Source: Actinomycetota bacterium (GTDB taxonomy: Bacteria; Actinomycetota; CADDZG01; JAHWKV01). Taken from it: a stretch of 37,437 nt of DNA. The notes under the pieces were generated by a model. The model did not search any database. It saw only the letters and a list, made by a program, of their open reading frames with translations, and was not told the origin of the DNA. Positions 32,681-36,952 of this stretch are shown here, in pieces. Where the stretch lies: assembly GCA_035759705.1 (NCBI GenBank), contig DASTUJ010000224.1:1-37437 (forward strand), written 5' to 3'. The first letter of the stretch is position 1. Every line of letters begins with the position of its first letter. Position numbers and translations under genes: made by a program.

Positions 32681-32723
32681 AAAAAGGCGCCCGCCCGAGC
32701 GTGCTCGAGCGGGCGGTCTTTTT
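32681..32723 (-). terminator. Terminator of the GlsB/YeaQ-like gene
   Basis: CCGCCC (32691-32696) pairs with GGGCGG (32711-32716), with a GAGC/GCTC stem inside. It is flanked by an A run (32681-32685) on one side and a T run (32719-32723) on the other, so it can work on either strand. On the minus strand it follows the gene at 32735. Confidence 0.75.
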
Positions 32724-32734
32724 GAAATCTCAGC

Positions 32735-32998
32735 CTAGACGCGGCGTCTTCCCCCCATGCCGGCCTCTGCGAGACCGATCAGAAGCACGGCGACCACGAC
32801 GGCGATGACAAACCCGAGGAAGTTCAGCTCGGTGAAGCTCCCGGTGCCCAGCAGGCTGGCGATCCATCCACCGGCCAGCGCGCCGACAACTCCGAGAAGC
32901 ATGGTGACTGCGATGCCGAGCGTCTGCCGGCCCGGCTTGATGAGGCGGGCAATCGCTCCGATGATCAGTCCAACAATCAGCAATCCGATGATCTGCAT
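32735..32998 (-). CDS. GlsB/YeaQ/YmgE-family membrane protein
   Basis: An 87-residue membrane protein of the transglycosylase-associated (GlsB/YeaQ/YmgE) family. Three hydrophobic segments are seen: IIGLLIVGLIIGAIARLIKPG, TMLLGVVGALAGGWIASLLG and LGFVIAVVVAVLLIGL, with a basic tail GGRRRV. The first loop RLIKPGRQ is the family mark. Members are stress-associated but their mechanism is unknown. AAGGAG precedes the ATG. Confidence 0.85.
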   Translation of the reverse strand: MQIIGLLIVGLIIGAIARLIKPGRQTLGIAVTMLLGVVGALAGGWIASLLGTGSFTELNFLGFVIAVVVAVLLIGLAEAGMGGRRRV

Positions 32999-33082: not shown

Positions 33083-34687
33083 TTACCTGCGGCTTCGCTT
33101 CCAGTCCCTCCTAGTCATGCCGACAAAGCGCTTGTCATCGCCCGGAATGTTGCGGTGAAGAATGTCCGAGAGGGTGTTAGTGGATTTGATGATCTGCCAG
33201 CCGGCGGGCGAGAACGTGGCCTCGTTGAAGATGCGCGGCGCCAGCAGGGGGTTGGTGAGGGCCTGCGAGAAGGCATCGATTCCCACCATGCGCCCGATCA
33301 ACGAGGGCAACACCGAGTTGGGGCGGATGTCCTCGGCGTAGAGCCCGGGGAAGAACTCGATGTCGTCGACCGTTTTGTAAAGGTCGCTCAGACCTTTCTG
33401 GACTTTGGGGTCTCCCGAGATCTGGTTGAACGCAGTGACCTTCGGGTACCCACATAACTTCCGGTACTCGTTGTAGCTGTCCAGCCGGACCTTTCTGCCT
33501 TTGTTGACACTCCACAGCTGCACCGGTCCCAGGACCGGGTCCGTGTTGAACAGACCGATCTTCCCCGCCGCCTGGTTGGAGGCGTCCTCGAACAGCTGCC
33601 CGAGGCCGTTCCTGGTGAGCAGATCCGTCTCGTACAGGGTCTTCAGGACGGGAACATCATCGCCGGCGATCCGGTAGGTCGGCGGCACCAACGGGTGCCA
33701 TCGGTACACGAGGTTGAACTCCACCGCCATCCAGTTGGGCCGGTACCAGGCGGGGTTCTTAAAGCTCGCCGGGTTGGCCCGGAACTGGAAGTGGTAGGGA
33801 GTGATGTGGTTGATGTACTCCTCGACCACGATCTTGATCAGCAGGACGATCAGGACGTTGCGGGCGGTTTCGAACAGCCGGTCGTCGTCGTCCTTCCACT
33901 CGGGGTACCTGGCGGCCAGCTCCCGTGCCACCCGGTTGTGTTCCCGGAAGAACAGGACGTTCATCAGGACAAACCCGAGCTGCAGGTTGGAGGTATCGCT
34001 TCCGACCGCGAAGAACTTCGACAGGATCTCGGGGGTGAGATTGGGCGCCAGCTTGGTCGGTACGTCGGGGACCAGGGAGTACTCGGGCTTCTTTTCCCCG
34101 TTTGCGTCGTAGGCGTATTCCGGGTACTCCTCTCCGTTGATCATCTGGGACTTGAGCAGGCCCCCTTCGTGCAGACGAAGCTGCTGGGTGACATCCGGGG
34201 TCAGGCCGTAGATCTGCATCAGGTCTATCTCGTGGTTGGTGTCGTTGCGCCTGTCGTCGGGGTCCGGCGCCCGGTCGCTCCGCAGGAATCCGTCGGTGAA
34301 CCATTGGGCGAAGTAGGAGAAGAGCACCGTGGATTTGTCCGACGGAATGAACTTGCCCTCCTCCCGGACGAACAGCTCGGCAACCTTCTCCGCCTCGGGC
34401 AACTCGGGTGCCGACTTACCCGGCGGCAGGTGCCGGCTCCAGTACTTGCGGTCGGTGAGCGAAGACCAGGAGGTGTAGTCCGCAAGGGTGCTGTCCGGGT
34501 TGGGGCGGTACGGCATCTTGGACGACGCGCTGTCGATCAGCTTGCCGTTGACGAATTGTTCGAGCTTGGGCTGACGCTGGACGAGCTTCCACGCCAGGCC
34601 GTAACTCGTCAGAAGTTTTGTCTCCCGGATGTTCTTCCTGCCGTCGGCACTGGTGTCTCTGCCCTTAACTCCTGATTCTTGCGCCAT
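33083..34687 (-). CDS. Cyclooxygenase-like haem peroxidase/fatty-acid oxygenase
   Basis: A 534-residue member of the animal haem peroxidase superfamily, closest in pattern to prostaglandin-H synthase. Shared blocks include FFREHNRVARELA, KIVVEEYINHITPYHF, EFNLVYRWHPLVPPTYRI, NEYRKLCGYP, EFFPGLYAEDIRPNS and DAFSQALTNPLLAP. Tyr328 and His331 (YRWH) match the radical Tyr385 and proximal His388 of cyclooxygenase, and Ser474 matches Ser530. In the distal motif, FAQWFTDG has Asp132 where cyclooxygenase has His207. There is no signal peptide or membrane-binding domain. It follows the P450 gene by 52 bp on the same strand, with AGGAGG before the ATG. A role in oxidising fatty acids is inference. Confidence 0.9.
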   Translation of the reverse strand: MAQESGVKGRDTSADGRKNIRETKLLTSYGLAWKLVQRQPKLEQFVNGKLIDSASSKMPYRPNPDSTLADYTSWSSLTDRKYWSRHLPPGKSAPELPEAEKVAELFVREEGKFIPSDKSTVLFSYFAQWFTDGFLRSDRAPDPDDRRNDTNHEIDLMQIYGLTPDVTQQLRLHEGGLLKSQMINGEEYPEYAYDANGEKKPEYSLVPDVPTKLAPNLTPEILSKFFAVGSDTSNLQLGFVLMNVLFFREHNRVARELAARYPEWKDDDDRLFETARNVLIVLLIKIVVEEYINHITPYHFQFRANPASFKNPAWYRPNWMAVEFNLVYRWHPLVPPTYRIAGDDVPVLKTLYETDLLTRNGLGQLFEDASNQAAGKIGLFNTDPVLGPVQLWSVNKGRKVRLDSYNEYRKLCGYPKVTAFNQISGDPKVQKGLSDLYKTVDDIEFFPGLYAEDIRPNSVLPSLIGRMVGIDAFSQALTNPLLAPRIFNEATFSPAGWQIIKSTNTLSDILHRNIPGDDKRFVGMTRRDWKRSRR

Positions 34688-34739
34688 GAATCTTCACCCT
34701 CCTGGTGCCGTGGCAGTTCCCCGCCTACAAATCGAGTGG

Positions 34740-36032
34740 TTACGCTTGCGCCGGTGACGCTTCTCCGAACCCGAACCAGAAGCTCTCAGGGAACGGGCCG
34801 CCGTGAAAGTCGATCTTTCCCTCGGGCGGGGGCAGCAGGTGGACGTTCGGCCTGAGCAGCACCCTGCGGACCACCTCGGGAATCACGACCGAGCCGACGT
34901 ATTTGCCCAGGCAGGTGTGGTGGCCGTAGCCGAAGTGCAGGCTGAGGAAGTCGGGCCGGTCGGTTCGAAAGGTCTCCGGCTCCTGCAGGACATCCTCGTC
35001 GAAACCTGCGGACGACGTGCACGCAAAGACCAGGGTCCCCGCCGGGATTACGGTCTCCCTGTCGGTCCCCGCAGCGACGGTGTAGTCCTCGACCGACAGG
35101 CGGAAGATCAGCGGGTTGATGGGGTTGAGCCGCAGCCCCTCCCACACGTACTCGTCGAAGGCTGCCGGGTCGTCCGCTTTGGCCGCCTCGGCCGCCTGCG
35201 CGTGAATCTCGGGCTGGAGCAGGATCTGCTCGAGCGACTGGGCGATCGCCTGCGAGGTGGTCTCCCCGGTCCCGACCAGCAAGCCCATGATGTTGGAGAG
35301 CAGCCGCTCGTCGTCGAAGCCGATCTCGGACGGGAACTGCGTGCGCACCAGCCGGCTGAACGTGTCCTGCGGAGCGTCCCCGTTCTTGCCGTAGGCGGTC
35401 TTCCGCTTCTCCGCCAGGAGGCCGGTCAGGTACTCCTTCATCTCCTTGCCGGTCTGGACGGCGGCCTCGTGGATAGCGGGGTCGTTGAGCAGGTTCTTGA
35501 ACATGTTGGTCTGGGTGTTCTTCGACCACCGGTACATCGACTCCAGGTCGGGGCCGGGAAAGCCGAAGTACCCGCCGACGATGCTTATGGGGACGAACCG
35601 GCACAACTTGCTGATTGCTTCGATCTTGCCTTCGGGGGCGGCAGCGTCCAGCGCTCCTTCGGCGAGGCTGGCGGCCATCTTGCGCACACCCGGCAAGTCC
35701 TCCGGCTTCAGCACGGCCTGCATGATGCCCTTTTCCCGCCAGTTGATCGGGGTGGCGTCCCGGGCAAGCATGAACGGGCCGACCACCGGGTCCATGTGCG
35801 GCTGGTAGGGCCTAACCGTGAAGACCTTTTCCCGAGAGAGGACCTCGGTCACGTCCGCGAAACGGGTTACGAAGGTGAAGTTGGGGGTTTTGAGGATCGG
35901 GCGGTTTTCCCGCAACTCCTTGAAGAAGGGGCGCCAGTCGGTCCGGATCCATTTGAGGGCAAGGCCGACTTTGGTCTTGTCGTCTGCAGCATCGTACTGC
36001 TCGAGGTAGCTGGTTGTTGCCGTGTCTGACAA
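34740..36032 (-). CDS. Cytochrome P450
   Basis: A 430-residue soluble P450. The haem loop HFGYGHHTCLGKY gives the Cys374 ligand; the ExxR motif is WEGLRLNP and the I-helix reads LLVGTGETTSQAI, keeping the acid-alcohol pair Glu-Thr needed for oxygen activation. The start is TTG at 36032 with GGAGG six bases before it. It is the first gene of a probable two-gene operon with the cyclooxygenase-like gene. Electron-transfer partners (ferredoxin, reductase) are not adjacent, so it could use a peroxide or hydroperoxide made by the partner enzyme. That last point is inference. Confidence 0.92.
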   Translation of the reverse strand: MSDTATTSYLEQYDAADDKTKVGLALKWIRTDWRPFFKELRENRPILKTPNFTFVTRFADVTEVLSREKVFTVRPYQPHMDPVVGPFMLARDATPINWREKGIMQAVLKPEDLPGVRKMAASLAEGALDAAAPEGKIEAISKLCRFVPISIVGGYFGFPGPDLESMYRWSKNTQTNMFKNLLNDPAIHEAAVQTGKEMKEYLTGLLAEKRKTAYGKNGDAPQDTFSRLVRTQFPSEIGFDDERLLSNIMGLLVGTGETTSQAIAQSLEQILLQPEIHAQAAEAAKADDPAAFDEYVWEGLRLNPINPLIFRLSVEDYTVAAGTDRETVIPAGTLVFACTSSAGFDEDVLQEPETFRTDRPDFLSLHFGYGHHTCLGKYVGSVVIPEVVRRVLLRPNVHLLPPPEGKIDFHGGPFPESFWFGFGEASPAQA

Positions 36033-36147: not shown

Positions 36148-36165
36148 GAGGCAACTGAGGGAGGA

Positions 36166-36190
36166 AGTACCTAATTAGATGAGAGGTACT
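36166..36190. promoter_or_regulatory. Candidate operator: AGTACCT inverted repeat
   Basis: AGTACCT (36166-36172) and AGGTACT (36184-36190) are perfect inverted arms around an 11-bp spacer that contains CTAATTAG overlapping the left arm. The site ends 19 bp upstream of the P450 -35 element, a position that suits an activator. The TACCTAAT string also occurs twice in direct orientation (36168 and 36190 regions). No regulator gene is nearby. Confidence 0.4.
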
Positions 36191-36192
36191 AC

Positions 36193-36540
36193 CTAATCCT
36201 CTTTGCGTTTCCAGGAGGCCTTGCGCTCCGGGCGGACCCTGATCTGCGACTGCTCGGAGCCGGAGCCCTTGGATATGATTTCTGCCGTCCCGGTGATCAG
36301 CACCCCCCATTTCGGCTTGCCGTAGATGAGGATCGAGACCCTCGGGTCGGCCTCGATGTTGCGCATCTTGGCGGCGTTGGAGTCGGTCTCGAAGCGGATA
36401 GCACCGTCCTCCCACCGGACCCCGACCGGCGCCGCATGCGGGAAGCCGTCCCGGCCGTTGGTCGTCAGGACGCCGACGGTGCGGTCGGTTCTCTCCAGCT
36501 CCCAGTCCTCGAAGACGGGCCCGGTGGCTTCACCCGGCAC
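36193..36540 (-). CDS. PNPOx-like flavin/F420-binding oxidoreductase
   Basis: A 115-residue protein of the pyridoxamine-5'-phosphate-oxidase-like split-barrel superfamily. Visible features are VGVLTTNGRDGFPHAAPVGVRWEDGAIRFETDSNAAKMRNIEADPRVSILIY, the pattern shared by FMN- and F420-binding members in actinobacteria. The cofactor cannot be decided. The start is GTG at 36540, inside the end of the glyoxalase gene (11-base overlap), so the two are coupled. It lies upstream of the P450 operator region. Confidence 0.82.
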   Translation of the reverse strand: MPGEATGPVFEDWELERTDRTVGVLTTNGRDGFPHAAPVGVRWEDGAIRFETDSNAAKMRNIEADPRVSILIYGKPKWGVLITGTAEIISKGSGSEQSQIRVRPERKASWKRKED

Positions 36541-36952
36541 GGGCGATCACCTCCACCTCGTTGCCCTCGGGGTCGTCTACGTAGAAGGTCCGCACGTCCT
36601 TGAGCACCGGGTGGACTCCCTCCCGCACCTCCAGGCCGTAGGTCCGGCAGATTTCGCCGAGCTCCTCGTACCGGCTGGAGTTCACTGCGAACGCGAGGTG
36701 GTGGAGCACCCGGGACGGCTTGTCCCGGGGAAACTCGGGGGAATCCGGGGACTGCGGGAACAGGACGATCATCTGCGGGATTCCGCCCGGCCCCTCGCCG
36801 GCGCTGAGGAACTTGACCCGGAAGTCGGGCTCCGAGATCAACTCCAGCCCGAAAAGATCCCGGTAGAAGCGGAGGGTGGCTTCCATGTCGCGGGTCCACA
36901 ACACGATCTCGGCGAGGCCGAGCACTGTGCGGTCGAGGGAAGGTTCGGTCAA
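36530..36952 (-). CDS. Glyoxalase/dioxygenase-fold (VOC) protein
   Basis: A 140-residue VOC-superfamily protein with paired beta-alpha-beta-beta-beta units. Possible metal ligands are Glu15 (GLAEIVLWTRDMEATLRFYRD), His85 (LHHLAFAVNSS) and Glu near the C-terminus (DPEGNEVEVIA). It could be a glyoxalase, dioxygenase or resistance protein; the substrate is unknown. A TTG at 36952 is used as start; a GTG ten codons on is possible. Its end overlaps the PNPOx-like gene. Confidence 0.8.
   Translation of the reverse strand: MTEPSLDRTVLGLAEIVLWTRDMEATLRFYRDLFGLELISEPDFRVKFLSAGEGPGGIPQMIVLFPQSPDSPEFPRDKPSRVLHHLAFAVNSSRYEELGEICRTYGLEVREGVHPVLKDVRTFYVDDPEGNEVEVIARAG

Follow-up and report, generated by a model that had tools for sequence, protein, structure and literature searches.

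A bacterial cytochrome P450 and a cyclooxygenase-like dioxygenase encoded in tandem as a probable two-gene oxylipin cassette

Whether a bacterial cytochrome P450 can act on a hydroperoxide made by the enzyme encoded beside it is the question raised by a tandem gene pair in an actinobacterial genome (GenBank assembly GCA_035759705.1; 2.99 Mb, 96% complete). We analysed positions 1 to 37,437 of contig DASTUJ010000224.1 (37,437 nucleotides, hereafter the window), in which a P450 gene (430 amino acids, TTG start) lies upstream of a cyclooxygenase (COX)-like gene (534 amino acids, ATG start). An earlier note on this DNA had placed the two genes 52 bp apart on the same strand and named their domains from the letters alone; coordinates, strand and spacing were confirmed, and Pfam agreed on both domains (PF00067 p450, 7.9e-16; PF03098 An_peroxidase, 2.4e-45). 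Judged by sequence, the pair is probably a two-gene oxylipin cassette, with the P450 transforming its neighbour's hydroperoxide.

The COX-like protein had its best PDB sequence matches to COX-2 and COX-1 (phmmer 1.4e-69), which were also its best fold matches (Foldseek template modelling (TM) score 0.84; predicted local distance difference test (pLDDT) of the model 84). It retains the catalytic tyrosine (Tyr328), the proximal histidine (His331) and the central tyrosine (Tyr291), and the first two, which lie in FxxxYRWH, were invariant among the 34 proteins of alignment A3. The position of the COX distal histidine (His207) is taken by Asp132 (QWFTDGF) and that of the aspirin serine (Ser530) by Ala472, and the distal aspartate was found in all bacterial homologues covering that stretch. 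The window motifs FTDGF, YINHIT and IDAFSQA match the published FTDxF, YIxxI(T) and DAFxQA (PMC13049297), and the distal motif given for the Nostoc punctiforme 10S-dioxygenase in that account is FTDSF. A 542-amino-acid Nostocaceae homologue (L075), 45% identical to the window protein, fits the published Nostoc numbering with zero offset (F143, F147, Y305, T310, Y342, I483, A487), departing from the published residues at 469 and 490. Because the distal aspartate is common to the bacterial homologues, the Nostoc enzyme carries FTDSF and the residues of L075 agree with it, the window dioxygenase is assigned by sequence to the bacterial 10S-dioxygenase (NpDOX) family and not to the prostaglandin synthases. 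A prostaglandin-type cyclooxygenase was ruled out by Asp132 and Ala472, and from these residues there would be no reason to expect prostaglandin products. As summarised in PMC13049297, the Nostoc enzyme forms 10S-hydroperoxides from oleate and linoleate, and cleavage of these falls to a separate catalase-related lyase. The host genome also encodes a second COX-like protein (L013; G000 contig C177, 4538-6202), 45-49% identical, which falls in a cyanobacterial-like branch that includes the COX-like gene of congener G003 as a relative, and which has no P450 or catalase-related gene nearby.

The order of the two genes is the same as in the window in two of three congeners (G001, 1 bp overlap; G002, 49 bp gap), and adjacency recurs on plasmids of Rhizobium etli, Rhizobium gallicum and Sinorhizobium medicae as well as in a Solirubrobacterales genome and two cyanobacteria. 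Thermomonospora echinospora carries one intact adjacent pair and one with a truncated P450. Gaps between the genes in relatives ranged from -77 to +82 bp, with frames often overlapping and the P450 usually first, an operon-like order. Adjacency of the P450 and COX-like genes is not due to chance, because the pair recurs in G001, G002 and several other phyla; the conserved adjacency on which the earlier note had staked its proposal is thus seen both within the genus and in distant bacteria. Among 91 COX-like loci, the neighbour was a catalase-related gene in 41, a P450 of this family in 12 (G003 and the truncated P450 included), an ordinary P450 in 1 and neither partner in 37, some of which are on short contigs. 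Catalase-related neighbours were called from single-sequence matches, after iterated-profile matches to an out-of-frame open reading frame (ORF) overlapping COX-like genes had been dropped. P450s of this family were present in five of 46 other COX-bearing genomes (cut-off E < 1e-25), adjoining the COX-like gene in four and a DyP-type gene in the fifth, while ordinary P450s occurred near 80 COX-like loci at about the chance rate (2 seen vs. ~2.4 expected, hand calculation). The truncated Thermomonospora P450 is a relic lying directly 5' of the second COX-like gene (L031:5664-5975).

Neighbours of the P450 were assessed using the P450 alone as query, to avoid conditioning on the COX-like gene, and each of the 17 matches was examined in its gene context. 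Relatives were found in the Actinomycetota (5/397 genomes), Cyanobacteriota (4/292) and Pseudomonadota (8/399) samples, and none in the 246 genomes of the Planctomycetota sample. Four of the 17 adjoin COX-like genes and one, in G003, lies 4 kb from such a gene; three, all cyanobacterial, adjoin a lipoxygenase, and the one lipoxygenase compared with the PDB is closely related to 5EK8, a cyanobacterial enzyme of known crystal structure; three adjoin or are one gene from a RoxA-like di-heme protein (NF040606/PF21419); and six adjoin or are two genes from a DyP-type peroxidase. In total, 16 of 17 adjoin, or are at most two genes from, one of four unrelated enzymes (COX-like, lipoxygenase, RoxA/PA2077-type di-heme or DyP-type). 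Plasmid records gave these neighbour types in 10 of 11 cases: three COX-like, five di-heme and two Skermanella DyP-type, one of the latter scanned and the other judged from position and size; the eleventh record begins at the P450. PA2077, the 10S-dioxygenase of Pseudomonas aeruginosa, and the diol synthase PA2078 have been placed in this RoxA-like group (PMC4496055), and a control search with NF040606 in a Pseudomonas genome gave no match. CxxCH spacing in the di-heme neighbours was mostly 236, vs. 245 and 235 for PA2077-PA2078, and these neighbours may be either dioxygenase-like or diol-synthase-like. DyP-type peroxidases adjoin the clade P450s at L112, L121, L140-L144 and L153, and several DyP-linked loci add a protein family without any Pfam match (558 amino acids in Skermanella); these loci may be regarded as a candidate new lipid-peroxide enzyme system.

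All 28 linked P450s formed a single clade (100/100) against three host P450s and two PDB P450s. The distinctness from ordinary bacterial P450s that the earlier note's proposal presupposed is therefore found, and the clade members from the genome searches all lie beside or near peroxide-making or peroxide-handling enzymes. COX-like, di-heme and DyP labels were each split across the tree, the lipoxygenase-linked P450s were nested next to a cyanobacterial P450 with a COX-like neighbour, and the neighbour label changed at least six times over the clade, indicating from the tree that the partner enzyme has been exchanged repeatedly. The window P450 retains ExxR (WEGLR) and the Cys loop (HFGYGHHTCLG), while the C-helix HTRLR of ordinary P450s is missing clade-wide; the window reads NWREK at this position and its branch is NWREK-like. 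The I-helix acid-alcohol pair is altered to Glu-Asn in L120 (Thermomonospora), Pro-Leu in L087 and Asp-Asn in L121, and the DyP branch has Pro-Thr or Pro-Gln. This loss of an O2-activation feature in relatives argues that the family uses peroxide. An asparagine near the I-helix site is also described in prostacyclin synthase, plant allene oxide synthase and fungal diol synthases (PMC13049297). An AlphaFold model of the window P450 (pLDDT 70, Cys loop unresolved) was too weak for a reading of the active site, and Foldseek matched it to ordinary bacterial P450s (TM ~0.6).

Two P450 groups that work on peroxides were considered and rejected. The CYP74 clan has an I-helix groove unlike that of monooxygenases and an insertion in the Cys loop; membership was rejected on the canonical VGTGETT and HFGYGHHTCLG of the window P450. 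In CYP152 peroxygenases, Arg-Pro replaces the acid-alcohol pair; the window P450 has Glu-Thr, and some relatives have the Pro without the Arg. The likeness to CYP74 enzymes (plant and Methylobacterium nodulans hydroperoxide lyase/allene oxide synthase) lies in that clan's rearrangement of fatty-acid hydroperoxides, not in Cys loop or I-helix sequence.

Comparison with known systems places the pair nearest to the Nostoc punctiforme one (Brash et al. 2014, as cited in PMC13049297), with which it shares the catalytic Tyr, proximal His, central Tyr, FTD(S/G)F with its distal Asp, Ala for Ser530 and a two-gene layout. Identity to the Nostoc dioxygenase is ~45%, the equivalent of its Ile483 is Val468, and the second enzyme described for Nostoc is a catalase-related 10S-hydroperoxide lyase, whereas the window partner is a P450. 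Fungal Ppo proteins, linoleate diol synthases and dioxygenase-allene oxide synthases have a COX-like dioxygenase and a P450 in sequence and share HxC in the Cys loop; in the window, by contrast, the two are separate ORFs with their own starts and Shine-Dalgarno sites, the distal residue is Asp rather than His, and the I-helix pair is Glu-Thr, without the Asn that L120 and L121 have there. The interpretation in the earlier note is supported overall, with two corrections: its Ppo comparison gives way to the cyanobacterial 10S-dioxygenase and catalase-related lyase as the closest system known, and the distal His is absent. Of the plant or animal dioxygenase-P450 fusions that the earlier note also names, we know none as such. 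Animal COX-1 and COX-2, with thromboxane or prostacyclin synthase, resemble the pair in fold, in the equivalents of Tyr385 and His388 and in having a P450 partner, but the window protein is only ~29% identical, lacks the distal His and Ser530, and matches COX-2 after the first 60 residues. PA2077-PA2078 of P. aeruginosa is likewise a bacterial oleate oxylipin pathway and is linked to the P450 relatives through their RoxA-like di-heme neighbours, but it has neither a P450 nor a COX-like protein.

In the mechanism we propose, the COX-like protein would take a C18 unsaturated fatty acid, most likely oleate in this host, a heme-generated radical on Tyr328 would abstract an allylic hydrogen, and O2 would add, probably at C10, to form a mono-hydroperoxide. 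The heme of the P450 would then bind the hydroperoxide and split its O-O bond with no need of NAD(P)H or redox partners, yielding a diol, an epoxy-alcohol, an allene oxide or a chain-cleaved aldehyde. The hydroperoxide-forming step is proposed because the protein belongs to a family with a characterised enzyme. The redox-partner-free step is proposed because the partner enzyme changes across the clade, motifs are lost in relatives and, as the earlier note had observed, no redox-partner gene occurs among the immediate neighbours (PPOX/F420, glyoxalase-fold, small membrane and PHA_gran_rgn proteins); beyond these, the check covered 25 of the window's 51 Pfam families. The host has one PF00487 fatty acid desaturase, and monounsaturated substrates are therefore plausible.

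A Tle1-like phospholipase gene, which may supply free fatty acid, was present in 24 COX-like loci, 22 of which hold a catalase-related gene; it also occurred in two of the three loci that pair the P450 with a lipoxygenase and in one P450-DyP locus (for example L045:4856-5890 and L128:4592-5602, plus ~25 other loci). Mycobacterial COX-like genes adjoin a fatty acid desaturase, with a conserved order in Mycolicibacterium (L086:4008-8896 and others) of malate synthase, solute-binding/VWA protein, COX-like protein and desaturase. Three consecutive genes on a Paracoccus yeei plasmid (L021:2207-6617) encode a di-heme protein distantly resembling RoxA, a catalase-related protein and a COX-like dioxygenase.

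Several observations weigh against the cassette reading, the strongest being that the window P450 keeps the I-helix Glu-Thr acid-alcohol pair, as do most COX- and di-heme-linked clade members, and peroxide use is therefore not readable from the window P450 sequence. Its nearest solved structures are redox-partner-dependent bacterial P450s (~20% identity), and DyP-type peroxidases have, to our knowledge, no role as fatty-acid dioxygenases. Most COX-bearing genomes have a COX-like gene without a P450 of this family, and G003 keeps the P450 (74% identity) with its COX-like gene, from another family branch, 4 kb away on the opposite strand, for which reason it was dismissed as a conserved operon. 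The Glu-Thr pair and the class I bacterial P450s nearest to the window P450 in the PDB would fit a COX-like protein that forms either a hydroperoxide or a hydroxy fatty acid, which is decorated further by a P450 that is an ordinary O2-/ferredoxin-dependent hydroxylase, its redox partners encoded elsewhere as those of bacterial P450s often are. We consider this unlikely, given that the Glu or the Thr is missing from relatives whose neighbours are the same and that the four partner enzyme types have a peroxide in common and not a hydroxylated product.

Detoxification, in which the COX-like protein would serve chiefly as a peroxidase while the P450 clears lipid peroxides that arise from oxidative stress, would account for the branch with DyP-type neighbours and for the small stress-type membrane protein gene downstream. 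It appears distinctly improbable, as the distal His needed for the COX peroxidase cycle is Asp in all members covering the site, the cyanobacterial family member is described as a real dioxygenase (PMC13049297), and phospholipase and desaturase neighbours point to substrate supply. Least credible to us is that the genes are adjacent only by descent or horizontal transfer and serve separate pathways: COX-like genes do often occur without this P450, including the 37 loci with neither partner, yet four of the five family P450s in the 46 COX-bearing genomes adjoin the COX-like gene, and ordinary P450s show no such excess over chance.

Features of the locus are listed in the table. The small membrane protein gene, retained in two congeners, is possibly the end of the transcription unit; terminator-like sites in the window were not enriched (2 found vs. 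3.6 expected from shuffles), and support for the hairpin that follows is correspondingly weak. No sigma-70-like promoter site was found (chance expectation 0.5). The 160-bp gap before the P450 contains short repeated GTACCT/AGGTAC elements (window 36155-36200) that may form an operator.

Table. Positions of the P450/COX-like pair and flanking features in the window.
Feature	Position	Strand	Basis or remark
Cytochrome P450, proposed hydroperoxide-transforming enzyme	34740..36032	-	Pfam PF00067, own clade, motif table
COX-like heme dioxygenase, bacterial 10S-dioxygenase family (by sequence)	33083..34687	-	PF03098, PDB, Foldseek, motif table, L075 homologue
52-bp spacer with Shine-Dalgarno AGGAGG (34698-34703) of the COX-like gene	34688..34739	-	Sequence
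Shine-Dalgarno GGGAGG, backing the TTG start of the P450	36039..36044	-	Sequence
Small membrane protein gene, 87 amino acids, GlsB/YeaQ-like by eye	32735..32998	-	Downstream; retained in two congeners
Intrinsic-terminator-like hairpin, 12 bp stem and T run	32688..32715	-	After small membrane protein gene; weak
PPOX/F420-type protein gene	36193-36540	-	Upstream of P450
Glyoxalase-fold protein gene	36530-36952	-	Upstream of P450

Cassettes of this general kind are already known from the Nostoc dioxygenase with its lyase and from the fungal fusions. For the bacterial P450 version and for a P450 family that changes neighbours, we found no earlier report in the open-access papers searched; subscription papers were outside the scope of that search, and priority is unproven. 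Few bacterial oxylipin pathways are known to us, and their second enzymes are mostly unknown. The fungal fusions have been proposed to descend from a bacterial dioxygenase-P450 ancestor (PMC13049297), for which the pairs described here are candidates. Beyond the two-gene oxylipin cassette itself, we tentatively suggest that this P450 family, outside CYP74 and CYP152, could be a portable, redox-partner-free hydroperoxide module repeatedly joined to unrelated lipid oxygenases, and that its unfused operon resembles the proposed ancestor. Such a partner-changing family would open a direct and testable way into new hydroperoxide chemistry; it may also allow fatty-acid oxygenases to be predicted among neighbours not yet characterised, the DyP-type proteins for example.
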